Positions 2,941 to 51,800 of a stretch of DNA of 64,000 bases are shown here, one piece after another; position 1 is the first letter of the stretch; the number at the start of each line of letters is the position of its first letter. Source of the stretch: Glutinoglossum americanum. Lineage: Eukaryota > Ascomycota > Geoglossomycetes > Geoglossales > Geoglossaceae. Both the position numbers and the translations under genes were made by a program. Under the pieces are notes generated by a model. The model searched no databases. It was not told the origin of the DNA and saw nothing but the letters and a program-made list of their open reading frames with translations. The stretch lies in NCBI GenBank assembly GCA_020080175.1, contig JAGHQL010000149.1:1-64000 (forward strand), written 5' to 3'.

Positions 2941-5900
2941 ATGGCGCATCTCCCTCGTCCCGTTCACTGTGAGGACTTCGAGATTGCTATCATCTGCGCT
3001 TTGCAAGTGGAGCGCGATGCCGTCGAGGCGCTCTTAGACGAGGTATATGAGACAGACGGATTCTCATACCGGAAATCCTCTGAGGACCCTAACACCTATA
3101 CCACAGGGAGAGTGGGCGAACACCACGTTGTGCTGGCATACATTCCGGGTATGGGTAAGGCTAGTTCAGCAGCTGTAGCATCCAGTATTCGCATCAGCTT
3201 CAAAGGGATTAAAGTCGGCATAGTTGTAGGGATCTGCGGAGGTGCACCAAGAGCCACTGATGGAACTGAAATTTTCCTAGGCGACGTTATCATCAGTGAA
3301 GCAGCGATACAAGTTGACTTCGGCTGCCAGTACCCAAACAAATTTATAAGGAAAACCACTCTAGAAGATAATCTCGGCCAGGCAAATCCGCAGATCCGTT
3401 CATTCCTGGGAAAGGTGTCAGGCTGGTCGGCTCACAAAAGGTTGACGGATAAGACTCTTATTTACTCTACAGCGCTCTACAAAAGGGATGGGTTTCACAA
3501 CTCTAGATATCCCGGCATAGAGAATGACAAACTCTACCCAGCCTACTATCAGCACAAACATCAAAACTCAGATTCCTGCGTCATCTGCGGCCAATTTCAG
3601 GGCTATGGCGATGAAGTCTGCGAAACCGCGCTTAATTCTTCTTGCGCAGAACTGGGCTGCGATGACACGATACTGATACCCCGTAACCGGACCAAGGACG
3701 CATGGAAACCCTCAATTCACTTCGGTCGTATTGCGTCCGGGGATGGGGTTATGAAGAGCGGGCAACACCGTGATGAAATTGTGGCTAGCGAGAAAGTGAT
3801 TGCATTTGAGATGGAGGGCGCTGGTGCATGGGACTACCTCCCTACAGTGGTAATTAAGGGCGTTTGCAATTACGCCGACAGCCATAAAAGCGAAGAATGG
3901 CAAAGATATGCGGTGACCACTGCAGCGGCTTGTACGAAGGCATTTTTAGAGGAGTGGAGGAGTGAAGACAGGCCGTCGAAGAGGTCGACTTCACCAGGTA
4001 TGGCCTGTGTCTCCTGGTGTCTTCACGTCATCTAACCTCATGACAGAAATATCTTCCAGCTTAAGCGAGGAGCGTCGCTTGTCGACATCGGCAGGCGAAC
4101 AGAGCTATTCGGAAGACATTAAAGCAATGTGCTTGCAGTCTCTCAGCTTTCTAAATATCGATTCTCACCGGCGTAATATAGCCCCTGCTCACCAAAACAC
4201 GTGTGACTGGCTGTTTGCAACGGCACAATTCCAGCAGTGGCAGAATCGGGATGACTTTAAAAGCCACAACGGAGTTCTCTGGATCAAGGGCAAATCAGGA
4301 GCCGGGAAGTCCACGTTGATGAAACATGCCCTGGTTCACTGCCAAAAGTCATTCCCAAACCACGCTATTGCGGCCTATTTCTTCAACGCCCGGGGCGACC
4401 ACCTGGAGAAATCTCCTCTTGGTATGCTCCGATCGCTACTGTATCAGCTGATAGAACAAAATCCGCAATTCTGCAGCCGCTTTATTCCACTCTTTCTCGA
4501 CGAGCAAAAAAACAATGGGATTCATTGGCAGTGGCATTCGAACCTGCTTGAACACTTCCTGCTGGAGATGATGGGGCGTCATCAATCCCAGCCGATGCTT
4601 CTATTTGTGGACGCTCTAGATGAATGTGATGAATCCCAGGTGCGAGATGTTGTGTCATTCCTCGAAAAACTAAGTTCGGCTACCATCAGATCTGGAACCA
4701 TACTCAACATCTGTCTATCGAGTCGCCATTATCCGACTATTTGTATGGAAAAAAAGCTCGAGCTAGTTGTGGAGAAGCGAGTTGAGCACGGTCAAGATAT
4801 TGCTATCTATGTCCAAGACAAACTAAAGAAAATAGATGAAGGCATTGAGAGGGAGCTCCTTGAAAAGGCAGCAGGCGTGTTTATGTGGATTATTCTCGCC
4901 ATCGAAATGCTCAACCAGAAATTCGATGAAGGTGGAATCGCAGCTATGCGGAAAACGCTTAGCGAGATGCCAGGCGACCTCGATGAAGTATTTCGAACAC
5001 TTCTAGAGAAGGACAACACACGCAAGTACGAGACTATACTCATGCTTCAGTGGGTCCTGTTCAGCGAACACCTGCTTAAGCCGGAAGAGCTATATTTCGC
5101 CGTTTTGGCTGGAACGGATGGAACGGAATCAGAGGACCTAGGGCCTTGGGACCAGTCAAAGGTCACAAATCAAATCATTGAGCGGTTTATCACCACTACC
5201 TCGAGAGGTCTTATCGAAGTACGTAAAGGAGATACAGAAACAGTGCAATTCATCCACCAGTCGGTCAACGATTTCTTACTCCGAAATAAGAGGCTCCAAA
5301 CGCTAGATTTAGCACTTGTACCGCATGTTATCGGCGCCAGCCACGATCGGCTTGCTAGTTCCTGTTTGTGTTATGTCGAGATGGTAAAGGATTCAACGCC
5401 CGAAAAGGAGCTAGTCCAGAGCTACCCGTTCCTAGAGTACGCATCTAGTTATGTCCTTTATCATGCTGAACAAGCACATGTGGGGCACATCGATCAACGC
5501 ACGCGTCTCCAACAGCTGCAACGCGAGTCAAAAGTTTATGAAAGATTGAAGAGCTTTCATAATATTTTTTGGCGTTGGCCTCTGAAATATGGCACGGAAA
5601 CGGAATTGCTCTATGTCGTGTCTCTCCGCCACTACCAAGGACTCGCCCGGGCTGTCCTGCTTGAACCTAGTGTTGACGTCAATGCGCAGAGCGGGCTCCT
5701 TGGCAGTGCGCTGCAGGCTGCTGCAGCTAACGTTAATGTCCACAACTCTGCCGCCGCTAAAGAGGTCATCCAGGTGCTGCTGGATGCTGGTGCTGACGTC
5801 AATGTCCAGGGTGGGCACTTTGGTAGCGCGCTACAGGTTGCTAGTAGGGGCATAGCTACTTATGATCATCACGGATACCTATTCTACAACCCCCCAAGTA

Positions 5901-7024
5901 CAGAGGTCGTCAGGATGCTGCTGGACGCTGGTGCCGACGTCAATGCCGTATGTGAGCACCATGGCAACGCGCTGCAGGCTGCTGTTGGTGGACTTCGCGG
6001 CTATGGAGACGTCATTAAAGAGGTCATTCAGATGCTGCTGAACGCTGGCGCCGATGTCAATATCCAGTGTGGGTTCTATGGTAACGTGCTGCAGGCTGCT
6101 ACTGCTGCCGCTTCTGATCGTCTTGGTTACACCAGAGCCATTGTCCCTCTAGAGGTCATCCAGATGCTCCTAGATGCCGGTGCCAACGTCAGTGCCCAGG
6201 GTGGGTACTACGGCAACGCCCTGCAGGCGGCGGCAGCAGTAGCAGCTACTGTTTGTAGGTACACAGGCGCCGATACTACTACAAAGGTTGTCGAGATGTT
6301 ACTAGACGCCGGCGCTGATGTCAATGCCCAGGGCGGGCGGTACGGCAACGCGCTACAGGCCGCTGCCGCTCGCAAGAGCACCGCTGTGGCTAAAAAGGCC
6401 GTTCAGATGCTGTTGGACGCCGGCGCCAACGTCAACGCCCTTGGCGGGTACTATGGCAGCGCACTAAAGGCTGCTGTTGCTTGTGCTGATGGCTTCTATG
6501 TGGATGGTGATGACTATCGCCCTGATGATGAGACCTCCGTCGTTGAGGTCATCCAGATACTGCTAGACGCTGGTGCTGACGTCAATGCCCAGGGTGGGTG
6601 CTATGGCAGCGTGCTGCAGGCTGCTGCAGCTGATACTAGCACTAATTATAATACCGCTGCCATTGAAAAAATCATTCAGATACTGCTAGATGCTGGTGCT
6701 GACGTCAATGCCCAGAGTGGGCGTTATGGCTGCGCGCTGCAGGCTGCGGCTGTAGGAGCTGTAAATTGTTATTTCCACGACACCGACGACAGCGTTACTG
6801 CCCCCCCAAAAGAGATCATCCAGATGCTGCTAGACGCCGGTGCCGATGTCAATGCCCGGGGCGGGCACTATGGCAGCGTGTTGCAGGCTGCTGATAGGCA
6901 TCACACCGACGACCCCGCCATTGAAGAGATCATCCAGATGCTGCTGGACGCTGGAGCCGAGAACACACTGTCCCGAAGCTCGAGTGAATTGTCAGATGAG
7001 GATACAGAGGACATAAATAGTTAG
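2941..7024 (+). CDS. NLR-type protein: nucleoside phosphorylase-like domain, NACHT, ankyrin repeats
   Basis: Two exons, 2941-3997 and 4047-7024; the 49-nt intron (gtatgg...ctaac...acag) restores phase and gives 1344 residues. Residues 1-350 form a PNP_UDP (nucleoside phosphorylase superfamily) domain: start EDFEIAIICALQVERDAVEA, glycine-rich GMGKASSAAV and VGICGGAPR, nucleoside-site FEMEGAGAW, and CNYADSH near the end. Residues 434-442 are the Walker A (GKSGAGKST) of a NACHT ATPase, with Walker B LLFVDALDECDE. From about residue 890 there are roughly ten ankyrin-like units with core IQMLLDAGADVNAQGG. In fungi this architecture is a STAND/NLR receptor proposed to act in non-self recognition; the phosphorylase part would be the effector. 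ATG 2941 is preferred because it directly precedes the conserved domain; 2872 is possible. The repeat units are near-identical in core but differ in inserted loop length (see findings). Confidence 0.93.
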
Positions 7025-9113: not shown

Positions 9114-12100
9114 TCAGTCCACTATGTGCTCACGCGGAAATCTAGTTTCTCTTTTCCGCCGGAACCACTTACGAAGCACGAACTGTGCCCAATGATATGG
9201 GCTAGACCCATCCCAATCATCCCTTAGCAGTAGGACCGTCTCTCTGAGTGCTCGAGCCAAGTTCGCAGTCGATTTCGTCCCCCCCTTAAATGCTTGCTGG
9301 TAGAAAATGTCACAAAACTGCCTTGCATCACGGCTTTCCGTTGGCCAGAGAGTCCCGATGACTGAGGTTGCTCCAGCACAGAGGAAAGCAGTGAGTATCC
9401 CAAGGGGATCATCGTTGGGAGTGACGTCTTGGTCACTGGAAGCACATGCCAGCAAGGTTACATGTGCAGCGTTGAGCCGGAGTTTGAATATGTCGTCAAG
9501 GGTGAATCTCCCATCGTCATTATTCTCGGGATTTGGCTCTAGGATTAGGCTTCTCTTGGTCTTGTCGTCTAGCTCTACGCTCGAATGGCCATGGTAATGT
9601 ACTAGGTCTGCATCTTTGATGAAGCTCAAGAAGGTGCTTCTATTCAAGCTTCTGCTAACGGCGAGCTTGGCGTTGAAAGCTTTTGCTAAATCTGTCACCA
9701 TGGTTTGGATATTAATGTCTTCCACCACGTCGAGATCTCCGTATCGACCAAAGGCCGCAATGTTATTTGTGATAGACTTTTCATTCACCTTCCGACATGC
9801 CGAATCTACGCAAGATTTGAGAATAGCGTTGCTGGAAGAGTAGATTATTGGGTTGTCCATGAGAAGAGGGTCTTCTGTCCCAGCAAATGGAATTGCATGC
9901 AAGGGGATTTCGTTTAGAATTCCTGTAGGGCACAGAACGAGCATCTCGTCACGCTGGATGAAAGTTCGAAGAGGTTCTATCAAGGGGCTCAACGCCTTCA
10001 GAGGTTCTACCGACTCTAGTCGCTGTCGGAATAGCACACCGTTTTCCCGACGACGGACTCCTAAGTTCTGTTGGACCCACTTTTCCACGGATCCATACCG
10101 CAAACTCACAGGCTCGGAGATGATGGTTAATTTCTCTTTAAAACGGATAGCAAAGAGGAAGATTACCTCGTGGTAACGAGCCCAGTCCACAAAGACAAGA
10201 GACTCATCAACTTCTTCAACTTGTTTTGACTGTCTTTGGATGTGAATAAGATGTTTGAGAGTCGCACCGTGACCTAATCTCACATCCAACATGTCTTGGA
10301 GCTCGGGGTGCGAGTTCATTTTGATCCAGTGACGACGTAACTCCATTCGCCTATGAGGACGCTCGAAGGGCTCTGCCATCGAGACCCTTTCTGCAAGCTC
10401 ATGTTCCTCCCGGAGTAAATTCCTTGCTTCCTCGTCGAGGTTCCCAGCATCTTCTCTCAAAACTGTCGAGGCTGCCCCTAAGGTTTCTGATAAAGATATG
10501 GCCTTCCATTCCTGTACTGTTCTCCACACATCCTCGATTCCACCTTCCTTGTGTTGAGCTGTAGCTATCGAGAGTTCAAGGTGAGTCAAGAGAAGCATTT
10601 CCCCCAGCCTTCCGGAAAGGTGCAGTCTCTTACGCCTTAACGTGTCGGACAACGAAAGGGCGAAAATTTCCTGTCGCAGTCCCTGCCTAGGGGATTGTTA
10701 TAACTTCAGCTACCTTATCTCCAAGTATAGCTAGCCCGAAATCACCGTAGATATCGAAGTCACTTACCACCCAGAGACCGCTCGCCTTATCGCATAACTA
10801 CATGCCTCTAACAACCTCTCAGCATGAACTTTGGCCTTTTGGTCCTTAGTTGGGTCCGGAGATGTTGCTGGCAGATCAATATGCAGCCTCAGAAGGAGTA
10901 ATGAGCCCAACGAAACACTTGCCCACACTGCGTCTTTGAAGGAGTCTTCCGTTGTAGTATTGTTCCAGAAGAAGGCTTCTGCCTGAGACAATAACTTTGT
11001 CGCAAGCGGAGATACATGGCAATAATGGCTCGGAGTCTCTTTTAACATCTGTGAAAGTAAGGTTCCCATTGTTACTCGGAGTTTATTTGCGATGATCAGG
11101 TTTCCTGGATGGTTTGCAACAAGGCTCTTCCCATAGGTGCACACCGCTAGTTTGGAATTGCCACAACTCTGTAGAACGGCTCCTAGCGTCAGCCCAAACT
11201 GATCCAGGAGTATGGGCCAGAAGAATTTTGGGAGAACTTCTAAAAGCCCCATCCCAAGCTCGAGCAATGGAATAACCACGTGCAGGGCAGGCGGAAATCC
11301 TATGTCTTGCAGCCGCAAACTAGAGACCTGGTTTGAGCCTAGCTTGGGGAGCCACAGAACCATTTCCAATATAGACATAACGTCAGCTGTACGGGCTCTC
11401 CAGCCCATTCCAGTCCTCTCAACGCCTTGAGCAGCGATGTTCACTAGCCACTGGATCCAGCGTTGTGCCCAGTTTACGAAAGTTGCTGGACGCTTGTCTA
11501 AAGGGAGTTCGACAATCAGTTCATCCCTCATCCGGAACCAGTTCAATAATGAGCTGTAGATGTGGTTTTGGTCACTACGACGGGATACTAATAGTATGTG
11601 GTAATATGCCGTGACTTCTGCTGACTTGAAGTCTCCAATAGTTTGATATGCTCGGCTTAAATTCCACGAAGTTATTATACCTAACGTGTCGCTGAGAAAG
11701 CCGTTTGAAGGTTGAAAGATGGATTCGCATGCGTCAACCAATGCTGAAGATATAAACCACCACTCAACCATTTTGACTCTGCATATATGCCATTGGTACA
11801 AATTACCAGTCTGATGCGCTGCTTTCGCGAGATCCGAGTATGGCTTTGTTACCGGCTCTGGAAAGTACTTATGCAAAAACTTGGCCTTCGATAGTAATGT
11901 GTCGTATACGCCTATCAGAGAGCCTTGCTCCCTAAAGAGGGAGGATATTCGGTCGTATTCTGTTTGTGCTTCTTCTTTCTTATTATAAAGTCCTCCTTGG
12001 TTGGCATTAAAAAGGAGTATTTCCACTAGCCCAAGATTGCTTCCGCATGCGGAGAAGATATTCTTAGCCTCATCCCGCTCAGTAAAAGATTGGTGCAAGT

Positions 12101-14272
12101 AAATTCCCTCAGCGTGAGGGTCTTTCTCAATGGCAGCAGCCCGGCGATAGGCCTCTGCCAAGCGAAGTCGGCAATAAGCTTCCTCAACCATCCGTGAAGA
12201 ACCCGCAGTCCCTAGCGGAGAGATTTTTTCTAAAAAGGAAAGAATTCGGGGGCATACTGTCTCTGGAATATCGTCCCAGTGGGTAATGTCAATTTCCGTC
12301 CAGTGGGGACGGACGATAGGATGTCTGTGAGGCCATCTGAGTAGGTCAAGCTCAACTGCAAGGGTGTCGTATGCCTCTGGAAATCTTTGGGCATCTTCCA
12401 GTACCTTCCTTAGAGAGCCCAATCTTTTCGATGATTCGTCGTATAGCGTGAACTCACCAAGGTCCCGACTGACAGCTAACCAAATACGCTGATAGTAAAG
12501 CTCAATTTGAACCTACATAGTATCAGTTTTGCTCGATTTCACCAACAGCTCCAGAGTAACAGCATTCTATGAGCACGTACCAACGTCCAAGAGTATGAGC
12601 TAGCCTTCATCAGGTATTTCTCATAGGCCATCAAAGCCAGATCCATGGCCTTCTTCCACCCTCCTTTGATAAAGCAATCTGTATATGCGCCGGCAAGGTG
12701 AAGCAAAAACAACTCAGGGGATCCTCCATTCGAGCCTAAGGATGGTGAATTTCTGAAAGCTTCAAGCTCCTCTGCGCATTTCCGAAAGTCCCCCATAGAC
12801 TCAAATATACGAAATCTCTCAAATATGACTTGGGGGTCACACGGTTCAGCTCGAGGCAGCTGATCGAGTGCTTTCTCCCAATGACCTAGCCGCCGACATA
12901 GTTGTGCCTGTTGGATAATGTTTCCGAGCGATTCATCACTGGCTAACCTCTGTGAGTTGGCCAGAGGTGACGTCTTCTGAAAGATACCTTGTCAGGCTAC
13001 GATTAGCCACCGAGAGAAGAGTAGATGCTCACAAAGTCCTGAAGCTGGGGTCGTTTGTCAAAATAAGCAGCTATGTCCAAGATTTGTCCCTGAAACGCTC
13101 GCATGTTGCTACCCAAATCAAGCTGCAGTAGGTTTCTCATTAGTTGGGACCAGAAGACAAAGGCAACAACCACCAGGAAACAACCCACTATATTATCCTT
13201 CTCATTACGAAGGGATTCCCATTGGTCCAGTTTAACGTTATTCACCGACAGTGAGCTTCCGCTCAGGCTTCCGTCGTCCTCATCCTATTATTTTATCTAA
13301 GTGACCATTTACAACATAAAATCCATGAGAGCGGACAAACCTTTGTATAGTCTGGGGTTGTTGGCAGGTCACGGTCGGCTGGGAGTCCGCAGAGGATAGG
13401 ATCATTTGAATCTTTTGATTTCGTATCGATTGCCAGAGACTCTTCTACAAACGTTTGTAGAACATTACCCAGTGCCATTTTGTTAATGGACTGGGAATAA
13501 TCTCTTCTTATCAGACCGTCCCTATGTAAATAAAATGCTGCTTCTTTTGCATTTCCCACACTCCAATTTTGTCTGAGCATTGCTTGGTGGGAAACCTGGT
13601 CCGGTGGTACTGGGATACCGTGACTTCGCATCTCATCTGCCAAAGTACCAACGCAAGATTCGAAACGACGATATAGAGCATGCAGCCGTCTCCAATTCCC
13701 TGCACGCGCTACCTCGCTGCGAACGAATTTATCTTGTGCACTGGAGTTAAACGATTTGAGTTGTTGTTCAAGAGCACCGCTGCCTGGGGTTGCTCCTAGC
13801 GAGATGCATTCAAGATCTCCCAAGTCACTTCCGTCTACAGGGAGACTGACGCCGGGCGGATACTTAATCTGGAACCCGTGATCCTTGGTGTGATATGTGT
13901 CGGCAGTGGAAGAACACTCAGCGCACAGATCAAAATCTGGGCATTCTAGACAATGGAAATACAATTCACGCAGCTCCTAGTTAGTTCGTTGTTTGCTTCA
14001 GCTCTCAGAACCCAGGGCCAACTAGGCTAGGACGGGGAACAGAGCACCAACAAAGAGAGAAAAGACGTAGCACTTACCGTTGAACATCGATCGCAAATCC
14101 CCAATGCAGTCTCTCCTTGACTTAGCCTAGGCTCTACTGCCTCTAATATTTCCCTCGGAGATAATGCGCCATCGTTAAAGCCTGATTCTGCAGAATCACT
14201 TTCCGAAGTCCACAGACCCCTCCATATTGTACTGGAACCTAAATCCAGAAGCGATTCTAGATCGGCTTCCAT
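9114..14272 (-). CDS. ZZ zinc finger - TPR-like - CHAT protease protein
   Basis: Six exons on the minus strand (14272-14078, 13976-13341, 13284-13033, 12976-12581, 12512-10768, 10686-9114), all GT-AG and phase-consistent, giving 1598 residues. Residues 60-98 are a ZZ-type zinc finger: Cys 60, 63, 74, 77, 83, 86 and His 94, 98, with the signature FHCLECPDFDLCAEC. The middle (about 110-1250) is helical and TPR-like, with many A-Y/W-E spacings such as RLRLAEAYRRAAAIEKD. The last ~270 residues are a CHAT domain (caspase/separase-clan peptidase): catalytic His in LVHYHGHSS (about 1440) and Cys in VTLLACASS (about 1489), followed by DPLGILTAFLCAGATSVIGTLWP. Known: CHAT domains are Cys proteases, often controlled by TPR partners. 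Inferred: ZZ-mediated recruitment and a role in regulated cell death. Divergent from the hydrolase gene at 14796. ATG 14272 is the first in-frame ATG before the ZZ. Confidence 0.9.
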
Positions 14273-14795
14273 CTTGGAGGGTATGTGCAAGACTTAATTG
14301 CAGGATAGATTTCGAGTTTCCGTGATCCCAGGCATGAATAACAGAAGATCGAGCCATGGCAACCAGCAGTTTTTAACAAAATTTGTTGGCGCCGATACTA
14401 GACTGTCCGGTTTCCTCGCTTAACTCTACCCCATCATAACTCTTAATAACTTCTACAGCTAATAACTTTATGAAAAGTCATCCGATTTTAATGACTTTTA
14501 CATTGTTTTAATAGCCTCATCTAACTCTTTAAAACGTGCCTGGTGCGTGCAGAACCCGACCACGGGAATGTGTTCGTTCTTCGTGTTTTTGATTTTGGAC
14601 ACGTCCCAAGCCCACATCAGTTAGTTACATTTGCTTATTTCGCCAAGCTTGACAACCCAGTGAGCAGTCCAGGCCAACACGAATAACCTCACCACACCAA
14701 TGCAATATATCAGACTTGTCGTCTGCCCAGAGTTGGTAATCTGAGCGTTTGTACGCTGCATTGCCAAATTTCTCGTTGATAACCCTGATGTTGAA
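14273..14795. promoter_or_regulatory. 523-bp bidirectional promoter between the CHAT gene and the hydrolase gene
   Basis: The two genes start on opposite strands from this gap, which has no convincing coding frame of its own. A short tract at 14400-14530 is AT-rich. Shared regulation of the two genes is inferred from the head-to-head layout only. Confidence 0.5.
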
Positions 14796-16985
14796 ATGTC
14801 TGACGTCGTCCACCCCGAAACGTTCTGCCTTAGCGTAGAGCCTGGCTCTATGCTCGCGGACGAAGATCCCCTTCATATCCAAACCCATGAGGTTCGCTCC
14901 TGCCTGATTACAACCTCCCTCGAACATGCACACTGGGGAAATTTTCAAGGCCAAGAGTCGCTTTTCATCAAGTACTGCTTCGATTTTGTGCCGTACCCTG
15001 GGGTTCGATTCAAGTCTATCTCAGTTCGAATCAAGTTCGAGAAGCATACACCTGGACCAAAATACCGAAGCAGATTGACATCTACTACCACAAGCAAAAC
15101 AATTCCGGCATTGCTTACCTATGGGCCAAAGTCATGGACTGGCGAGGCCGTATCACGCAACACTAAACACGAGATTGGGGTTGATATAGGTGGCAAGGAG
15201 ATAGGCGACCAAAGGGATGCACAAGTCAAGCTCTACTCAACCAGGATGTCCCCGATGACTGTAGCGTGGAATCTTGAAGAGAATGACATTACTCATGCTG
15301 GTACACCTAACCATTTTGAGGTGGCAATGATAGTTAGGTCTGGTGGAGAAGAAGTCGAGGCACTTGTTCGATTTGAGATGCGCCTGTCGAGAAATCTTCA
15401 CCCGCTAAGCTGGGTTGATGGGCATGCGGCCAAGAATGACAGCCTGGTATTTAGAAAAGGTTGGGAGGTCGGAAAGCACGTTTCGGGGCTGGACGCGATG
15501 GAGCTAGATAACTTCCAGCTGGCGGCCTTTATTAAGCAGGAATGGGATCCCTTGCGACCTGTTGTTGATGGAAAGAAAGAGGAGAGCGGGTAAGTTTGGA
15601 ATTTACTCTGACAGGATAGAATAATCAACCTTACCCATTAGTCGCGATATCACGCAGAAAAACACTGGAACTGGCAGGGTCTTTCGCGTCACCAAGGTCC
15701 CCTCAACCTTCAAAGAGTCCGATGTACAAAAAATTCTCTGTCCTCAAAGCCCGGCTACGGCCCTCGTTGGCTCCCTGGCGCCTGATGCGGACTCGTTCGA
15801 CTCTGGTTCATATCAGGTGGCAACCGTAACATTTGAACCTCTTAATCCACCATTCATTGATCTTCAGCCAGACCGCCCAATGCAATGCAATCACGAGAAT
15901 ACTACAGGACAGTCGGGTGCCATTACGGTAGACTGCTCGTTTCTTGGGTTGACTACCCTTGCAAGTCCAAGTTCGAAATCTGAAATTATAATGGAGTATG
16001 TGTGCTCACTCCATCACACGGCAACCGGGAGCTAACGCCCCTTTCTCCTAGTGTAATTGCTGTTACAGGGCTCAATGGGCATCCTTTCGCGTCCTGGAAA
16101 GAACGTGATGGGAGATTTATGTGGCTTCGAGATGGATTGCCACAAGCCCTTCTGGGTACACGCATCATGACATACGGTTACAATTCAAGGCTCTATGGAA
16201 GTGCATCATTTGCGAGTATTAGCAGCTACGGAAAGTCTCTTTTCGCAGACGTGGTCTCAGCAAGAGCTACTCCTAAGGAACGCTGTGGTCCAAAATAAAC
16301 GGAGGTGTCTGCTAACATTGTCCTAACAGGACGAAAGAAGACCGCTAGTATTCATTGGCCACAGCCTTGGTGGCCTCTTAATCAAAGAGGTTTGAAGATG
16401 CTGAAGATTCCTTAAGAAGATGAAATGCTTATAGAATTAGGCACTTGTCTGTGCCTCACGTGCCAATTCAAGCGTTTTCGATTCGACCCATGGTCTCATC
16501 TTTCTAGGAGTACCCCATCGGGGTCTTCAAGTGGAACACCTACTGGCAATGGTCAAAGGACAACCTAACGAAGAATTTATTGAGAGTTTGAAACCAGAAT
16601 CTCCTTACCTAGATGCACTTCACGAGAATTTCGTGCAAGCTGTCAAGGGGAAGAAGGATTTGACCACCCACTCTTACTTCGAGACTGTAGAGTCGAAGAC
16701 TGTCAAGGTGAATCTCCCTCCCATCTCACCAAGCTTGCATTTTTAACGAATTCCGATAAGAGAGTGGGGGATACCTGGAAACTAGAGGGATCGTCTACAC
16801 GGCCAACGGCCAAAAGCTCAGCAACCGGAGCCACACCTTGGGAACAATCATCGGATCAGCATCCAATGAATCTCTCTCATTCAGATATGGTCAAATTTAA
16901 AGAGGGTGACTCGTATTACAAAAATATCCGACGCCAGCTATGCGATTTAGAATCAATCGCTTCAAACTTTACTCTTAATGGTTGA
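14796..16985 (+). CDS. Unknown beta-rich domain fused to an alpha/beta-hydrolase (NLR-associated lipase-like)
   Basis: Exons 14796-15589, 15642-15995, 16052-~16265, 16330-16389, 16441-16707 and 16761-16985 give about 637 residues. Residues 1-380 (HPETFCLSVEPGSMLADEDP onward) match no family I recognise and look beta-rich. From about 383 there is an alpha/beta-hydrolase of the PGAP1/DUF676-like type that usually heads fungal NLRs: DVIAVTGLNGHPFASW, RIMTYGYNS, nucleophile elbow FIGHSLGGLLIKEAL (Ser about 466), LIFLGVPHRGLQ, and a C-terminal HSDMVKFKEGD with the expected His. There is no NACHT or repeat domain, so it is a solo effector-like protein. Four of five introns are canonical. The third has no GT donor in phase: a weak GC site at 16266 fits best, so this spot may be non-canonical or damaged. 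It starts 523 bp from the CHAT gene and runs toward the NACHT gene. Confidence 0.8.
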
Positions 16986-17385
16986 TCACGCGGGAAGAGT
17001 CTATTCTATTATTCAGGTCATTCAGATGTGATATCTTTTCAAGAAACCTCTCAAGAGACACTCCTGGGAAGGAAATAGGGTCTGGGAGAGCTGGGAGGAT
17101 ATGCACCGTTTGAAATCCCACTGAGACTCGGCACAGATGATTTATTCCTTTACTTAGTTATTGGGAATAAAAGCTATTCCAATTGCACTCCTCTGAAAGG
17201 CTTCCAAGATTACTTGTAATTGGTCACGATGTTTAGCAATTAGAGAGTTTAAGCGGCAGTTCTTACAAATAAGTTACACAAGGAATCCCTATCGAATCGC
17301 GACCTAGCTTAGCACAGCTTTCGGATATCCCCCTCTTCCCCCTCTTCCTATGCATAACGCATTACATAGAATCAATACAAGGATT
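16986..17385. other. 400-bp convergent gap
   Basis: Lies between the stops of the hydrolase gene and the NACHT-TPR gene, which face each other. No coding signal. It probably holds both 3' untranslated regions. Confidence 0.5.
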
Positions 17386-20300
17386 TTATACTACTGAGTT
17401 GTCACTCAATGTGAGGTCCAGCACGCTTGCTCTGGCGTTCAATTCATTGAGAATGCCTTTAGTCCACAAAGTATGCTTGTGTCCCAGCCCTAGAACTTCG
17501 GTCTGACCACTTAACGTCATCTCCTGCAGACTCTTGGCAGCTCCTATTTGTCCCAGTTCCGCAAGAACAAGGGCTAGGTCATTCATGGCCCATAATGTAT
17601 CCGGGTGTTTCAGCCCCAATACCTTCTGCCGCCAATCAAGCGCATTCTGATACAAGACTGCTGATTCTTTGAGGCGTCCTTGTCCACGATAACAGCCGGC
17701 CTTATCCATAGTCGCCCAGAGAGTATGTGGGTGCGATTCGCCAAGGATAGCGCGTTGAATAGCAAGTGCCTGGTCGTGAAGAGCGATAGCTTCCGCGAAG
17801 CGGGCTTGTTTCCGGTAGGTGCGGGCGAGAGTATTTAGCGTCCAAGCGATCTGCAAATCTTGGGGATGGAGCACTTTACGAAGAGCAATCAGGGCTCGCT
17901 TATGCATAGACTCGGCCCTATCGAAGTCGCCCAGGTGTCTGTATATGCGGCCTAGTTCGTTTACCGTCCAAACGGTTTCTAGGTGGCTGGGACCGAGGAC
18001 AGAGGTCTGGATCGCGAGCGCGGACTCTTGGGTGTGGGCTGAGAGTACCACTCGCTGCTGCTGATCGTATATGATACCTAGGCTGTTCATCAGCCAGACT
18101 GTTGAGATGTGCGAGGTCCCATGACGGGCGCGCTGGAAGTTCAGGGCAGTCGTGAGCCATTCTTCACCAGATGCGAGAGTGCCGGTCATGGTATATTCAC
18201 GGGAGAGATCACGGATGATCATTAGCTTCTCGAAGTAAGGTATTTCCGGCATGGAGTTGCTGAGGTGGAGACCGTTGATGACGTTTGGGGTTTGTTCTTC
18301 GACGGGGGCAGGGGTACTGTGGCCGCAGAGGATAAATGGTACGTCTTGGATCCAGTTGGTTACGGTATTGCGGAGGTGGTGATTAGTGCCTTGAGAAATC
18401 CAGTCTCGTAGGAATTTTTGGGACTTCATGAGATATTGGAGCGGGAAGGTAGATGATTGCCAATAGATGAATCTCAAGACCCAAATCCGACGTCGGGACT
18501 GAGGAGTGAGGAATTCCAAGGCCAGGCGCTCGAGTTCTTGGCTGCAGAACGCATTGCAGATATGGTGACACCAGAATAGGGTCGAGTACTCCAGTAAGGG
18601 AAGGGGCGCGGTGTGGACCTGGCGTTGTTCGTGACTACCGTGCCGGATTTGGTATGCCAGACAAACCTCTGCAAGCTCGCAGTTTCCCAGCTCTTCTAGG
18701 ATAAAGAACTTCCGTGCGTCCTCGTGGACCAGGTGGTCGTCAGGTGAGCTAAGCAGAAACTCGCGGACTGAGTGATGAGTTAGACGAAACAGGTCACTAC
18801 TAGGTATGTATTCAACCAAAGGGCTACCAAGCTCCAAGACCACGGATTTGAATGGTTTCTTGGACTCCACAAAATTTCCATGTGACCGTTCAAATGATAA
18901 TGCGCATTCCAATTCATTCCAATGCAAGGGCCGTACTGAACAACAGATCCACTGGAGGACCTTTTTGGCAAGAGCTTGCCTGTTCGGTGGTTCTCTGGCA
19001 ATTTTATTAAGAATAGCGTTGTAAGTGGTGTCGAGGTCAACCGGAAGGTCTGAGAGAGCTTCCATGATCTCATGCGGGGAAACGGACGACTTTAGGGTCT
19101 TTATCATGAGGTGTGCCCATAAGAACATACCATTCGCGCCCTGCGAGAGTCTTTCGAATATTTGGTCCTTTAGCTCTGTGTTCCTTAAGGATAATCCAGC
19201 CAGTTCATGAGATATATAGTTATTAATATCCGAGCTCACTACAGCGGAAGTCAGATTAATTTTAGGAATGCCGTTTAGTCCATTGCTGAGTTGTGGAGAG
19301 TCTCGACTGAGGAAGATAACTTGGATCATTGTTGTGCTATCGGCAAGCGCCTTCATGGTTCCCAGTACATCAGATGCGCTACTGAGCTCATCTATTCCAT
19401 CGACAAGAATGTAGAGTTTATTGAGGGACAATGCCAGATCTTTCATGATGATAGCGGGCTGGTCCGCAGCCGATACCTTTGATCGTCCGTATCGAGAGGC
19501 GATGTTGTAGGAGGCGCAGATACTATCTGGTATGCTGCATAATTGGCCGAGAACTTGTGCAATCATGCTTGCGAGGATTTTTAGAGTAGATGCATTCTCT
19601 TCGTTCCCTCTATCGCAAAAGAAGAATGCAAGAGCCTGTTTCGCTTCGCTTTCAATGCGATCTCTAATGGTATCAACGATAAAAGCGCTCAAAACAGTCT
19701 TTCCAGATCCCGGAGGTCCAGAGATCCAGAGGGCTCGATGCTTTGATTGTAGCCAATCTTGGAAGAATTCATCTTGCAGTAGCCATTGGCCGCTACTTTC
19801 AGTACGCCGACGTGATTCTCGGTTTCGAATCCCCTCCATGTCGATCGGAGATAGCCACTTCATTACTTTCCATCTCTCGTGAAGTGAACACTATAGGACA
19901 ATGACACATAATGAGACCATTGTAGAGCTTCGATAACAGGAAAGCAAGTCTTCAGAGTCGAAAAGGTTAGGAATCTCACCTCAATCCGAGAGAGTGACCC
20001 GTGTATAGCGTCATGTTCCTTCGAGTGTTTTTCAAGTCTCCTGCGCACGTCAATTCGATAGGCTAAATCAATTTCTGTTTCGAGGGACCTCGTATGCCGA
20101 GTTATCGCCTCCAGTGTATCTTGGAAATCGGACTCAAAAGTACGCCAGAGGCTCCTGCAGAGGATTTGGAATCCTATATTAGTCAGTCTCACGTCGCGAC
20201 ATCACAAGAAAAAAAAAAGGCTTCTTAAAACCTCTAGTCTTGAATATGATGGTGGCTTTTTTGAGAAATACTAGGACGTCAAAATAGACAGTGGCTAGGG

Positions 20301-20802
20301 CCTCTTGGAAACGCCGGTCGCCGTTCAATATCCCTTCATACTCCTGGTACAGGGTTAAAGAGTCGCTCAGTCTCTCAGTCATCGCTACCAATTTCTTGAA
20401 GTACTGGGAGTACGCCAAGGCAGTCTTTATTGTTCAGCAGATGAGCTTCATTGGACCAGAAAACCAGGGAGAGTTTACCTCCAACAAGACTCTAACAAGG
20501 CCCCAGATCAGCGCTGACGGGTTTGGGTGAACCTGCGCAATTGAATCGAGGGCTTTCGCATGACGGTCAAGAAAACCGAGGAACGGTTCGAGGCGACGGA
20601 TCAAATTGCGCGACTTGCTCGACATGGCATGCTGTCGGTCCAGATCTTGGACGTTGGCAAGGACATCTTTCAGTGTGACATCTGCCAACGCAATCTTCTC
20701 CATTCCATTGAGCGTTCTCTTAAATTGTTCGAATGCTGTCCCGAGAGGGGTCCTATTGTCTTCATCACACTGAGAGAGCAGTGGGGCAGAGTTCTGAGCC
20801 AT
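17386..20802 (-). CDS. NLR-type protein: DUF7708-like N-terminus, NACHT, TPR repeats
   Basis: Four exons (20802-20479, 20424-20232, 20173-19980, 19890-17386), all phase-consistent, give 1071 residues. Residues 1-235 resemble the DUF7708 domain at the head of many fungal STAND proteins (key stretch HPNPSALIWGLVRVLLEV). NACHT follows: Walker A GPPGSGKT at 295-302, Walker B LYILVDGIDEL, and a sensor-like IQVIFLSRDSPQL. The winged-helix-like region (LSFERSHGNFVESKKPFKSV; LTHHSVREFLLS) leads to a C-terminal array of kinesin-light-chain-type TPRs (units such as HPQDLQIAWTLNTLARTYRK). Fungal NACHT-TPR proteins are candidate receptors whose repeats sense ligands. It lies tail-to-tail with the hydrolase gene and may complete a receptor/effector set with its two neighbours; that link is inference. 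ATG 20802 is the first ATG in the exon-1 frame. Confidence 0.92.
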
Positions 20803-46739: not shown

Positions 46740-47951
46740 TCACCCATGCATCAATTCAGATGCCTCATTATTCCACTGCGTCCTCAACATCTCCCTCGCC
46801 TTATCCCACCTAGGGCCGATGGTTGCCGGAGCCTCCCGAGTATATCTCATCAACGCCGCTACCACGGTCTTATATCCCGCCGAGTTTTTACTTTCAAACT
46901 TGCACATTTGTGAGTGGCTAGCAGGGATCCCAGAGCGTTCGGTATTGTCTAAGATGGGTGCGGCCGACGTTTCATCGACCACCTTATTGCGTTATCAGCG
47001 TATGGATTGGAACTGAATTGGGAGATTTACACAGCCCTTAGTGGTTCCCATATCAGTCTTCTCCTGCTCCCAGAAGAAGTAGATATGAAACTGCTTCATG
47101 AGAGGCGTGAATTGGTCTGTGATGTTTTGAAGTGTTTCCGAGTCTTCTTGTAGGGCATCTAGAAGCTGGCCCTCCGTGTCCAAGACCCTCGGAGGGACAA
47201 GGGCTTTGATCATCCGCTGTCCTATCCTAGCTAAGTTTGCCTTGCTGCTGCCGTTATGTGGGGTACCGAGGAAGATGATGGCGTAGGTCGACACGTATAT
47301 GGAGTGGATATGCGCGATATTTTTCGCTATTCTACTAGCTGAATATGCTAATGCCTGGTAGGGAGCTTGTTAGTATTTTCCTCCAGTAGGGAAGTTTAGG
47401 GCCTTACTCGTTTGACAATTATGCCTCCCAGGGAATGACAAATAAATATTATAGGTCTCTCTGATGCAGACTCAACCTGGAGATATTGTTACATTCTAGT
47501 GCCAAGTGTAAGAGGAATTAGCAGACAAAATACTCACCGCACGATCTGCCTCTAGTTGTGCAACGAGGGTTTGTGCATGCTGCAAAATTCGATTTGATGA
47601 TGTACTTCCTAGCAGGGACGTGACGTTGGCATTATAACCAAAAGTCAGAATTCGCGCATTCTTGATAGCCCCAGGGAGCAGGCTGCCATCTCCAAGCCAA
47701 AAAACTTTGGACTTATCCGTCGTCCAAGTGTTGTAAGCATCACCATTTAGACCATGGACGGCTACTATGCTAGAAGCACCGATGTTAGTTGCCGAACAGG
47801 TATTCAGGCAAGGAACGTTACTCCACTGTAGGGTTCTCCCCAGCAAAAACCTCAAAAATTCCACAGTTTGCCTAGATCGAGGGTGGGTCGTTAGTATTCG
47901 CCGACCTAGAGTAAGTGGTCGGGCTGACTTGCCATACTGTAATCCCGTCAT
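46740..47951 (-). CDS. Solo alpha/beta-hydrolase of the NLR N-terminal type, lacking NB-ARC and repeats
   Basis: Exons 47951-47538, 47476-47408, 47354-47031 and 46982-46740 are phase-consistent (about 349 residues). Hydrolase motifs: IVAVHGLNGDAYNTW, ARILTFGYNA, elbow FICHSLGGIIVKRAL (Ser about 153), AIIFLGTPHNG, ETLQNITDQFTPL, VVDETSAAP and HSQMCKF. The product stops at SELMHG, just where the paralog at 48885 continues into its NB-ARC domain, so it is a stand-alone hydrolase. The 5' end is uncertain: an alternative model places the first junction at a GTAACG site near 47822 with EVFAGENPTVD upstream. It is head-to-head with that paralog and keeps two introns in the elbow region that the paralog lacks. 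The hydrolase is probably an effector activity in NLR signalling (inference). Confidence 0.8.
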
Positions 47952-48884
47952 AGGCGAAATTCCGAATTCAGTAGAGATTAACCTGACGATTCACTTATAA
48001 AACCAAAATAATGATACGAAGTAGACAGAGGGCGGTGTGATAAACGGGTATCAGTGGCCAACTTGGCCTATGCCAAAGTACCAAACCAGGCGTTAATAGA
48101 TCTCCCGCTGACCACCCCGAAATGCTCGCTCCCGTGTTGAATCACCATTTCCGACCCCAAGAGCGAGCCAGGCCATAGAGGTACGCCTTGACGCCTAGCG
48201 CCCGTTAGTATCGTCCCAAGCCATGCACCACGTGGCCTAGGAGGTTCAACCAATCATCCTCGTTCCCTTGGATTCTAGGGCTCCAGTACGACTCATACAT
48301 GTATGTACATACGAGTCGTGAGCAGGGTTCAGCCAACATTTGAGACATCGCTTTCATAACCCCTCCTTCCGAAGAGTCCCATAACCGCTCCCATGCAAGA
48401 TGTCAGGAAAATACGCATCGTGTTGACTGAGACAAACCATGCAGGGACGCGGCGTTGGGCGTCCACGGACTTTCCCATCCAATGCGTTTGCCTTGCTCCC
48501 GTGGTTGCACAGGTTTCTGAGTAGTCCAAGCTCGGCCCTGTCAGTGTTAGATAGAACGCCTGATGCATATAAATGCGACGGGACCTGCGCGCGGCATTAC
48601 AAAACTCAATTAGCCAACACCGAAGATTGATCTAGCTTAAGCGGAATAGGCGAGAATCCTGACGGTTATATTGGTGCTCCAGCTGTCCTTAGCGGCAAGG
48701 CTATTGAGGCCTGCGAAAGCCCCGGTTAGTTTGCGCGCTTATTGTCTGCGAGGTTTGGTCGACTTTGTTGTCCAGGATTCGTGTTGTTAGAATCTGAGAT
48801 TATGACACAAGCCCATTACCAGGCTCTTCGTATCGTCGACCTGAGCACGCTGCGACACGATTATACGTAGCTAAGATCGCTGCT
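47952..48884. promoter_or_regulatory. 0.93-kb region between the two head-to-head hydrolase paralogs
   Basis: Contains a 32-bp imperfect palindrome at 48288-48319 (arms acgactc / gagtcgt) and an orphan, spliceable two-exon coding-like fragment at 48631-48870. The rest is unassigned and presumably carries both promoters. Confidence 0.45.
48631..48870 (+). pseudogene. Orphan two-exon coding-like fragment
   Basis: The frame SSLSGIGENPDGYIGAPAVL (then SGKAIEACESP) is followed by a canonical 51-nt intron (48725-48775) and, in phase, FVLLESEIMTQAHYQALRIV up to TAG at 48870. There is no upstream ATG in frame, since a stop lies just before 48631. The family is not recognised. It could be the 3' remnant of a lost gene; chance is possible. 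Confidence 0.3.
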
Positions 48885-51800
48885 ATGACCCTGGAGTGCG
48901 TAGTGTCTGAGGATGACGGGTCGGTGGACTATACTGTAGAGTGAGTGCGCGACATTGCTTAGCTGTAACATCTCATCCCAAGTATCTATTGCTCACTCTT
49001 CCAGTATCGTTGCGATCCATGGGCTGTATCAGGGCCAAACGGAGACTTGGACCGATCCGGAGACCCGAACCTTCTGGCTTCGAGACCTGCTCCCAAACCT
49101 ACTTCCCAAGGCCCGGATCATGACATATGGATATAAGGCTGATGCTCTGTATTCTGCTGGAGAAGGGTCGTCTGATAGAATTCTCCCACACGCTCTTACC
49201 CTCATTGCTGATCTTTACGCGGATCGCCTTGCTGCTAGTGCTGTCGAAAGGCCAATCATATTCATCTGCCATGGGCTAGGAGGAATATTAGTGAAGAGGG
49301 CATTGGTCTCTTCAAATACCAGCAAATCCAAACAAGTCGAACATCGACGATCGATCTTCACCTCAACTTACGCCATCTTATTTCTGAGTACTCCCCACCA
49401 TGGCCTATCGCCAGAAACCATCCAAGACCCAACCAGTCCCAAGCCTAGCCAGCTTCTAGCCAGCTTAGCCAAGGGTTCGGAGGTACTCCGGGATATCGAT
49501 GACCAATTCGCCCCTCTGACAAAGCGGTTCTCCATATACTGCTTCTGGGAGCAGCTCGAGAGCAATTTCGGAAAGGCAAAGCGCTATATAGTAGATGAGG
49601 GTTCTGCTGCACCAGCCTGGGATAATTTTGAGCGGTCTGGTATCTTTGCCGATCACTCCGGCATGTGCAAGTTCTCGAACACCAGGGATGCTGGGTTCAA
49701 GGTTATCTTTGCTGCTTTGAAGAGATACACTCAAGATGCACCCAAGGTTGTACGAAGGAGATGGCTTGAAGACAGAGCACTCCTTGCAGAGGAGCGAGGA
49801 GTAGAAGCAAGAGAACTACTGCGTCATGACTCAGATTTATCTAACAGCGACAGTCCTATAGCAAAAGCGAATAAGTATTTCACTGTACCACGCAGTGCTA
49901 GCAGCATGTTCACAGGAAGGTCCGACATTGCGAGAGCTCTCAGACAGAAGATCATCTCTACACGAGTCCAAGATGGACATCACCAACACAAGATATTTGT
50001 TCTATACGGCTTGGGAGGATCGGGCAAAACGCAGTTCTGCTTAAAATTCGTTGAGGACAACCGCGAAAGGTACGGCATCATCCAAGACTGCAACATCCGC
50101 CACTTAGTAGTGGAATGTTAGTTCTCACTGTGGTTTGACGCTGAACAGACTGTTAGCTTTTGGGGAATCTTTTGGATCGACGCAAGCAACGATCAAAATG
50201 CGGAAGCAGGCTTTGCATACCTAGGTAGCCTTGCAAAAAAGGACACAACCTTTGAAGCTGGGAAACACTGGTTATCCAACTGCTCGAAATCCTGGCTCCT
50301 TGTAATCGACAACGCCGACGACCCGGAAATGGATGTCTCCAGGTATTTTCCCTCCGGTGGGAGAGGCCACATCTTGATTACAACTCGGAATCCTAATAAC
50401 GTTGTGCATTCGACCATCGGGGATGTGAACTTTCGGGGAATGGAGCAAGAAGATGCCATAACGCTTCTCCTAAAAGCCGCCAATCGACCTGAATGTATGG
50501 ATTTGGGACAACGGGAGATAGCCAGACCAATTGTTACCACCTTGGGACATCTTGCACTGGCACTTACTCATGCTGGGGCAGCAATCAGGAGAAATATATA
50601 CACATTGGAGGGGTATTTACCGGAGTATTGTGAACATAGGAGAGAGATGATGAGGCAAGATAACCTCCGCAGCGCAGACTCATATAAACTCAACATCATT
50701 ACCACATGGGAACTCCCATACGAACAAATTAAGCAGCGAGGAACGACGTCGGCAAAAGATGCAATTGAGATACTTCACATCTTCGCTTTTCTTCACTTTG
50801 AACAGATACCCGTTGTCATGTTCCAGAAAGCTTGGAACAATATGCGGGACTCCAGCGCGTCGGCATCACCATCAATGCCAAGATTCCTTAGAGGCCTTTG
50901 GCCTGCGATCCCAGGAGCCAAGAAGTACCCGCTCCCAGCCATTCTAAGTCAAGTTGGGCCAATTTGGGATTGGCCTCGCTTTAACAGGGCCATTGGCCAA
51001 CTCTCTGACTACTCTCTGATAGATCGCGACGATAAAAATGGGCTATGTTCGATGCACCCCGTTGTGCATGCTTGGGCGCGGGATAGACTTCAACCAGAAG
51101 AGCAAAGGCATTTGCTGGGTGTTGCCGCAACCGTACTCGCAAATTCGATCACATCGGAGCTGGAGTCCTCCGGTAGGAATTATCGACGGGCACTGATTCC
51201 CCATATCGACTCTTGCTTGCAGGGCAAGAATGCTGAGTTATTGGGATATGATAAGGATAGTTTCCACGCTTCTAATGCTATCAAATTCGCATCTGTATAC
51301 GCAGAGGCTGGCCGCTGGATAATAGCTCGTGGAATACAGCGGAAGGTGGTGAACTTTAGGAAGAAGACGCTAGGGTCGGGTCACCCCGAGACCTTGAAGG
51401 CTATGATCTACCTTGGACGGACATGTTGGAACCTGTTCTCTATGAAAGAAACGTTGGAGGTGCAGCTCAGCGTCCACAGCACAATGGAAAAAACACTAGG
51501 AAAAACAAATCCTGAAACACTTAAGGCGATGGACGACCTTGTACAAACATACTGGTTGGTGGGAAACAGGAAAAAGTCCCAGGAACTCGCTTTGAAAGCG
51601 GTACATGGTCTAAAGGAAACACTCGGCCACGTCGACCCGGCGACGCTCACAGCGATGCACAACCTCGGCCGCAGTTACTTACACCTCGCTCAGCCCGAGA
51701 AGGCCCAAGAGCTGCTCTCCCAGGTCCTTGAGTCTCGGCAGCGACTTTTCGGCATTAAGCACCCAGATACACAAATGACCATGACCGATCTCGCCATGAG

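Follow-up and report, generated by a model that had tools for sequence, protein, structure and literature searches.

Pairing of CHAT and S8 proteases with a predicted beta-sandwich partner in the earth-tongue fungus Glutinoglossum americanum: a possible two-gene cell-death unit

Do three adjacent genes of an earth-tongue fungus constitute one cell-death module, or is the conserved unit smaller? The stretch of DNA analysed here (the window) covers positions 1-64,000 of contig C56 of Glutinoglossum americanum and contains a CHAT protease gene, a middle gene linking a domain of its own to a putative alpha/beta-hydrolase, and a NACHT receptor gene, which the original prediction had proposed to form a single receptor-effector set. 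The conserved unit is the protease together with the domain encoded by the first exon of the middle gene (hereafter the partner): the two are paired repeatedly in this genome, the partner belongs to a protein family, and two classes of protease, CHAT and S8, take part. The features of the pair in the window are as follows.

9114-14272, - strand: ZZ-CHAT protease gene, 1598 residues, six modelled exons (gene model and Pfam)
14272-14078, 13976-13341, 13284-13033, 12976-12581, 12512-10768 and 10686-9114, - strand: exons of the CHAT gene (model)
9174-9983, - strand: CHAT (caspase-like) domain, residues 1310-1579, motifs HYHGHS and LACAS (Pfam and motif reading)
13866-14098, - strand: ZZ zinc finger, residues 59-102, split by intron 1 (Pfam; coordinates from the gene model)
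14273-14795, no strand: region separating the CHAT and partner start codons, 523 bp
14796-15589, + strand: partner domain, exon 1 of the middle gene, 265 residues, predicted beta-sandwich, possibly of hemolysin fold; protease-linked family

The genome (25.77 Mb in 317 contigs) was searched for partner copies with the window protein, the C253 copy, the C152 copy and P0022 as queries; genome-wide counts are lower bounds, and the start codons and splicing of neighbouring genes were inferred from open frames. Five copies were detected, on C56 (the window), C152, C253, C263 and C41, and a protease gene adjoins the partner in all five. In the window the CHAT gene stands head-to-head with the partner at the predicted distance of 523 bp, and re-modelling reproduced the coordinates given earlier for both the CHAT and the NACHT gene. 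On C253 a CHAT-ankyrin gene is head-to-head with the partner (390 bp), on C152 a CHAT gene is convergent with it (290 bp), on C263 an ankyrin-S8 gene is head-to-head (521 bp), and so is the S8 gene on C41 (689 or 803 bp, depending on the start codon), whose product scores 42.5 bits for S8, over the cut-off, and 23.7 bits for ankyrin, below the cut-off of 27.3. Each of the three CHAT genes similar to that of the window thus has the partner domain next to it, and to this extent the CHAT gene and the unknown domain of the proposed set stand as a recurrent pair; the other two copies lie beside S8 genes. Protease loci in the genome comprise five CHAT places and eight S8 loci (ten exon matches), of which latter C263 and C41 were looked at with their neighbours, and the nominal chance that five of five copies fall within 3 kb of these 13 loci under random placement is 2.5e-13. 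The CHAT domain of the window protein matches PF12770 with 119.3 bits (gathering score 24; E 2.8e-34), the His/Cys dyad motifs read HYHGHS/LACAS in the window, HYHGHA/IACSS on C152 and HYHGHT/MSCES on C253, and the ~1200 residues separating ZZ from CHAT in the window protein are without a Pfam match.

The remaining two CHAT genes, on C302 and C43, are 72% identical to each other, have TPRs, and are head-to-head with a different family of ~280 residues that is unrelated to the partner. Beside the C302 gene this neighbour lies at L020:2724-3557 (- strand; gap 310 bp), and the C43 copy (C43:33514-34178, - strand) is 62-65% identical to it, with stops in the six-frame reading that are possibly introns; no relevant match to this family was obtained in Pfam, the PDB or PADLOC. 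A HET-domain gene (PF06985, E 3.2e-24) is found at L019:1-1683 (+ strand), near the CHAT-partner pair of C152.

The 265-residue first exon itself has no Pfam match, and the family was delineated by searches of protein databases, which took candidates of 0.55-1.75 times the query length and missed longer fusions; the last of these scored 7994 candidates, those sharing most words with the query. One set of 17 relatives (including P0001 and P0002) and a second of 20 (including P0032, the deposited C253 copy) were obtained, mostly of ~270-320 residues and from genera including Leptodontidium, Dactylonectria, Nemania, Tuber, Geoglossum and Trichoglossum. The two branches of the family are homologous by profile comparison (E 7.8e-19), and the C253 copy links both (E 6.9e-12). 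The window copy is the most divergent, reaching C152 in tblastn at E 4e-9 (fetched loci) or E 3.3e-5 (genome-wide) and profile A6 weakly in a single-sequence comparison (probability 8%, E 0.0043), and the C41 copy, first met at E 0.0095, is 37-38% identical to C263 in alignments. Viral and prokaryotic collections gave 43 and 68 pattern matches but no relative by tblastn, and PADLOC and PHROGs searches returned nothing useful. One relative, P0030, carries a C-terminal extension of ~200 residues after the partner domain, without a Pfam match up to E 0.5.

The middle gene extends beyond the partner, from 14796 to about 16985 on the + strand, and its further parts are the following.

15642-15995, + strand: exon 2, domain of ~118 residues, by reading also in front of hydrolases in database relatives
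16052-16298, + strand: exon 3, first part of the hydrolase; the frame stops at TAA 16296-16298
16330-16985, + strand: putative remaining hydrolase exons, ~16330-16389, 16441-16707 and 16761-16985 (read by eye)

What had been taken for one unknown domain of ~380 residues is therefore two units, exon 1 (265 residues) and exon 2 (~118 residues), the second of which, by reading, precedes hydrolases without the first unit in P0004, P0005, P0008, P0009 and P0015. The proposed fusion to an NLR-type (NOD-like receptor-type) alpha/beta-hydrolase is present, but its frame is not intact, as the TAA precedes the GHSLGG motif encoded at about 16357-16374, and the deposited protein P0001 (FGG08_005832; 464 residues, 100% identical to the translated gene) ends at this stop. 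The hydrolase exons downstream look open. Four GT donors are in phase with the acceptor of the GHSLGG exon (16053, 16062, 16251 and 16254), each of which would cut out a segment kept in the relatives P0002 and P0005, and no good splice route from exon 3 past the TAA to the GHSLGG exon was found; the interrupted putative frame could be explained by a non-standard splice as well as by a recent break. The match of P0002 to the window protein (30% identity) covers 91% of the query and takes in exon 2, and P0017 and P0018 also bear the exon-2 unit by reading, hence the fusion is not unique to the window gene. No hydrolase fusion was found at the other four partner loci (C152, C253, C263 and C41), which, together with the interrupted frame, leaves the hydrolase unsupported as a constant part of the set, and given the long tree branches of the window (2.72) and C152 (1.53) copies, the fusion may have arisen either once or twice. 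Elsewhere in the window, at 46863-49563, tblastn located two more NLR-type hydrolase-like stretches on opposite strands.

What, then, could the pair do? With a probability of about 40%, the core is a two-gene cell-death unit composed of a protease and a hemolysin-like partner of ~280 residues, which would be cleaved to form a pore. We infer for the pair a course of sensing, cleavage, pore formation and cell death, in which the large protease (CHAT, or S8 subtilisin at two paralogous loci) would sense non-self or damage and cleave the adjacent partner, and the freed partner would oligomerise and form a beta-barrel pore by inserting its central segment, glycine-rich and charge-poor in many solo copies, into the membrane. 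The partner is predicted to be almost all-beta, and a hemolysin-type fold is predicted from that of the C263 paralogue, with a sandwich topology of the hemolysin/leukocidin type. Within the C263-type branch (A6), Gly/Ala content is highest and charge lowest in stretches of residues 126-144, near mid-chain; charge is also at its lowest there in the A2 branch, and the longest charge-free run lies in that segment in C152, C253, P0034, P0036-P0044 and P0047. The window copy is intermediate, with 2 of 17 aligned residues charged and a Gly/Ala fraction of 0.24. Since this copy is fused to a hydrolase and lacks a long charge-free stretch, a different role is possible for it: the partner domain in the window may serve as a protease-docking or trigger domain, with the hydrolase, provided that it is produced in full length, taking over execution.

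A number of observations weigh against this reading. The pairing was seen in one genome only, and its loci are paralogous, so that they represent fewer independent events than five, at least one per protease class. Both fold models were built on the same 18 sequences and are of middling confidence, the query-normalised TM-scores (template modelling scores) from Foldseek are low (0.18-0.31 for C263 and 0.17-0.33 for the window, at E<1e-3), and with the window model other beta-sandwiches account for 12 of 29 Foldseek matches (E<1e-3) and 17 of 50 VIA rows. The Leukocidin family matches one of the 36 distinct members scanned (E 0.0011, or ~0.04 over 36), and as the best PF07968 score of 19.3 bits is below the gathering threshold of 22.4, the family was not filed as a PF07968 member. 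The Gly/Ala peak of the A2 branch lies elsewhere, and the longest charge-free run is at mid-chain in only 20 of 39 members and beats shuffles at p<0.05 in two of 39, but not in C263, C41, the window copy or the hydrolase-fused copies. The segments of C263 and C41 have Gly/Ala fractions of 0.48 and 0.50 but contain 4 and 6 charges, and because these modelled copies are charged in the hairpin segment, confidence in the pore readings is slightly lowered. The longest charge-free run of the window copy is only 10 residues and lies outside the aligned segment, and in P0002, P0017 and P0018, which are fused to a hydrolase, the segment is short and charged; the sequences suggest that fused copies may have lost membrane insertion. 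Lastly, of the proposed ZZ-TPR-CHAT architecture the ZZ and CHAT domains were matched by Pfam but the TPR was not, no TPR family being matched in the window protein up to E 0.1, nor any up to E 0.5 in the main CHAT frames of C152, which counts likewise, and C253.

It is doubtful, yet deserves serious consideration, that the partner, rather than forming pores, serves the protease as regulator, adaptor or inhibitor, in the form of a lipid- or ligand-binding beta-sandwich of C2, AP2-mu or adhesin type, with the protease itself as executioner or directed at another substrate. That the partner is a diverged fungal gasdermin of the HET-Q1/RCD-1 family, and the loci ordinary gasdermin-protease clusters, is unlikely: the genomic layout, the two protease classes and the length of ~280 residues agree with it, but the predicted almost all-beta partner differs from the mixed alpha/beta gasdermin N-domain. 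No gasdermin was among the displayed rows of the fold search, and PDB sequence searches with A2, A4, A6, P0050 and P0051 gave no relevant match and no gasdermin, which does not exclude one. Moreover, the unrelated family paired with the C302 and C43 CHATs may be the better gasdermin candidate. Pure history, in which an ancestral pair of protease and partner was copied and the genes simply stayed neighbours, with no functional link between them, is very improbable. It would fit with the relatedness of the three paired CHATs, and the CHAT- and S8-linked copies are split by one tree branch, although 98 and 110 of 500 shuffles did likewise and the split is not significant; the paired CHATs are, however, ~27-30% identical to one another, yet adjacency survives changes of orientation and of protease class, and the C253 partner has a full-length counterpart, 85% identical, in Geoglossum simile, suggesting constraint.

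The three-gene module as originally conceived, with CHAT, hydrolase and NACHT-TPR as one receptor-effector set, is decidedly unlikely. Its third member is the following.

17386-20802, - strand: DUF7708-NACHT-WHD-TPR receptor gene, four exons, 1064 residues (model and Pfam)

The proposed DUF7708-NACHT-TPR architecture is correct, with DUF7708, NPHP3_N/NACHT (111.4 bits), winged helix and TPR (TPR_12, 136.7 bits) all matched, and so is the tail-to-tail gap of 400 bp to the hydrolase gene. The three genes are adjacent in the window, and an NLR is present within 4 kb of the partner at three of five loci (3.7 kb in the window, 1.7-2.0 kb on C263, and 2.5 kb on C41, where the gene is an NLR-like one with ankyrin that scores 33 bits for NPHP3_N). 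If placement were uniform, three of five within 5 kb would have a nominal P of 0.0017, which speaks for some association, and the NLRs of C263 and C41 are related (27% over 1172 residues). However, among the matches listed there is none within 15 kb of the partner on C152 or C253, the closest NPHP3_N being at 15.6 and 16.4 kb, respectively, which leaves the NACHT gene unsupported as a constant part; with at least 156 NPHP3_N matches genome-wide, chance alone would put an NLR within 5 kb of a given locus in ~6% of cases and within 10 kb in ~11%, and NLR genes may be, and NLR-rich regions probably are, clustered, raising chance proximity. The interrupted hydrolase frame, and the finding of no other partner copy in the genome fused to a hydrolase, also speak against the module. 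A third component may belong to the S8 loci, an NLR being present at one of the three CHAT loci. At both S8 loci, related NACHT-ankyrin genes are located on the far side of the partner (L033:2816-7372, - strand; L043:2788-6435, + strand), hinting at a three-gene S8 block. The window also holds a NACHT-ankyrin-like frame of 1024 residues (3950-7024, + strand; NPHP3_N match at 4196-4726).

Known systems offer several comparisons for the proposed cell-death unit. In bacterial TPR-CHAT systems such as Craspase, a CHAT protease is encoded together with its substrate, in contrast to which the loci described here have no CRISPR component, an unrelated substrate family and no detected TPR. The partner resembles bacterial alpha-hemolysin/leukocidin (PF07968) in the predicted sandwich topology of C263 and in the central Gly-rich, charge-poor segment of part of the family, but it is fungal, is encoded beside proteases, and has a sequence similarity to these pore-formers that is mostly undetectable and below the Pfam cut-off. 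According to a review, ~80% of fungal gasdermin genes lie in clusters with protease genes, the protease being of the S8 class in ~63% and of the CHAT class in ~19% (PMC10197012; similar figures in PMC12881547). The pairs of G. americanum are like the HET-Q1/HET-Q2 gasdermin-protease clusters, as far as these papers describe them, in that a small putative executioner gene is located beside an S8 or CHAT gene, several paralogues occur per genome and some proteases carry ankyrin repeats (PMC12881547; PMC10197012). They are unlike them in the partner, for which an all-beta, hemolysin-like structure is predicted instead of a gasdermin-like one, in the fusion of some copies to a hydrolase, and in the CHAT proteins of the window and C152, in which no TPR was detected. 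A CHAT protease is also encoded by the heterokaryon-incompatibility gene hetB of Aspergillus fumigatus, where it is implicated in allorecognition and its target is not known; the hetB alleles are idiomorphs that encode either CHAT or a short protein, and the accessible part of that paper mentions no hemolysin-like partner (PMC11138114).

The presence of these two protease classes, shared with the gasdermin clusters, beside a non-gasdermin, hemolysin-like partner would indicate proteolytic release of a different executioner. This leads to the tentative proposal, which we hold at clearly less than even odds, of a second, non-gasdermin pyroptosis-like pathway in fungi, in which adjacent CHAT or S8 sensors would control intracellular pore-formers of hemolysin fold; in some lineages, fusion to a hydrolase would have reduced the pore module to a trigger domain. 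Among the papers listed by literature searches, one of which used broad general terms and shows little, none was seen to ascribe a hemolysin fold to a protein of fungal cell death, and the words 'hemolysin' and 'leukocidin' are absent from the accessible part of PMC12881547. The authors of the A. fumigatus hetB study regard verification of the protease target as an important next step (PMC11138114), and for the targets of CHAT proteases in fungal incompatibility loci, the head-to-head neighbour would be a directly testable candidate. If true, the proposal would mean that fungal immunity has a further, structurally distinct class of executioner and that a defined partner exists for some CHAT and S8 proteases.
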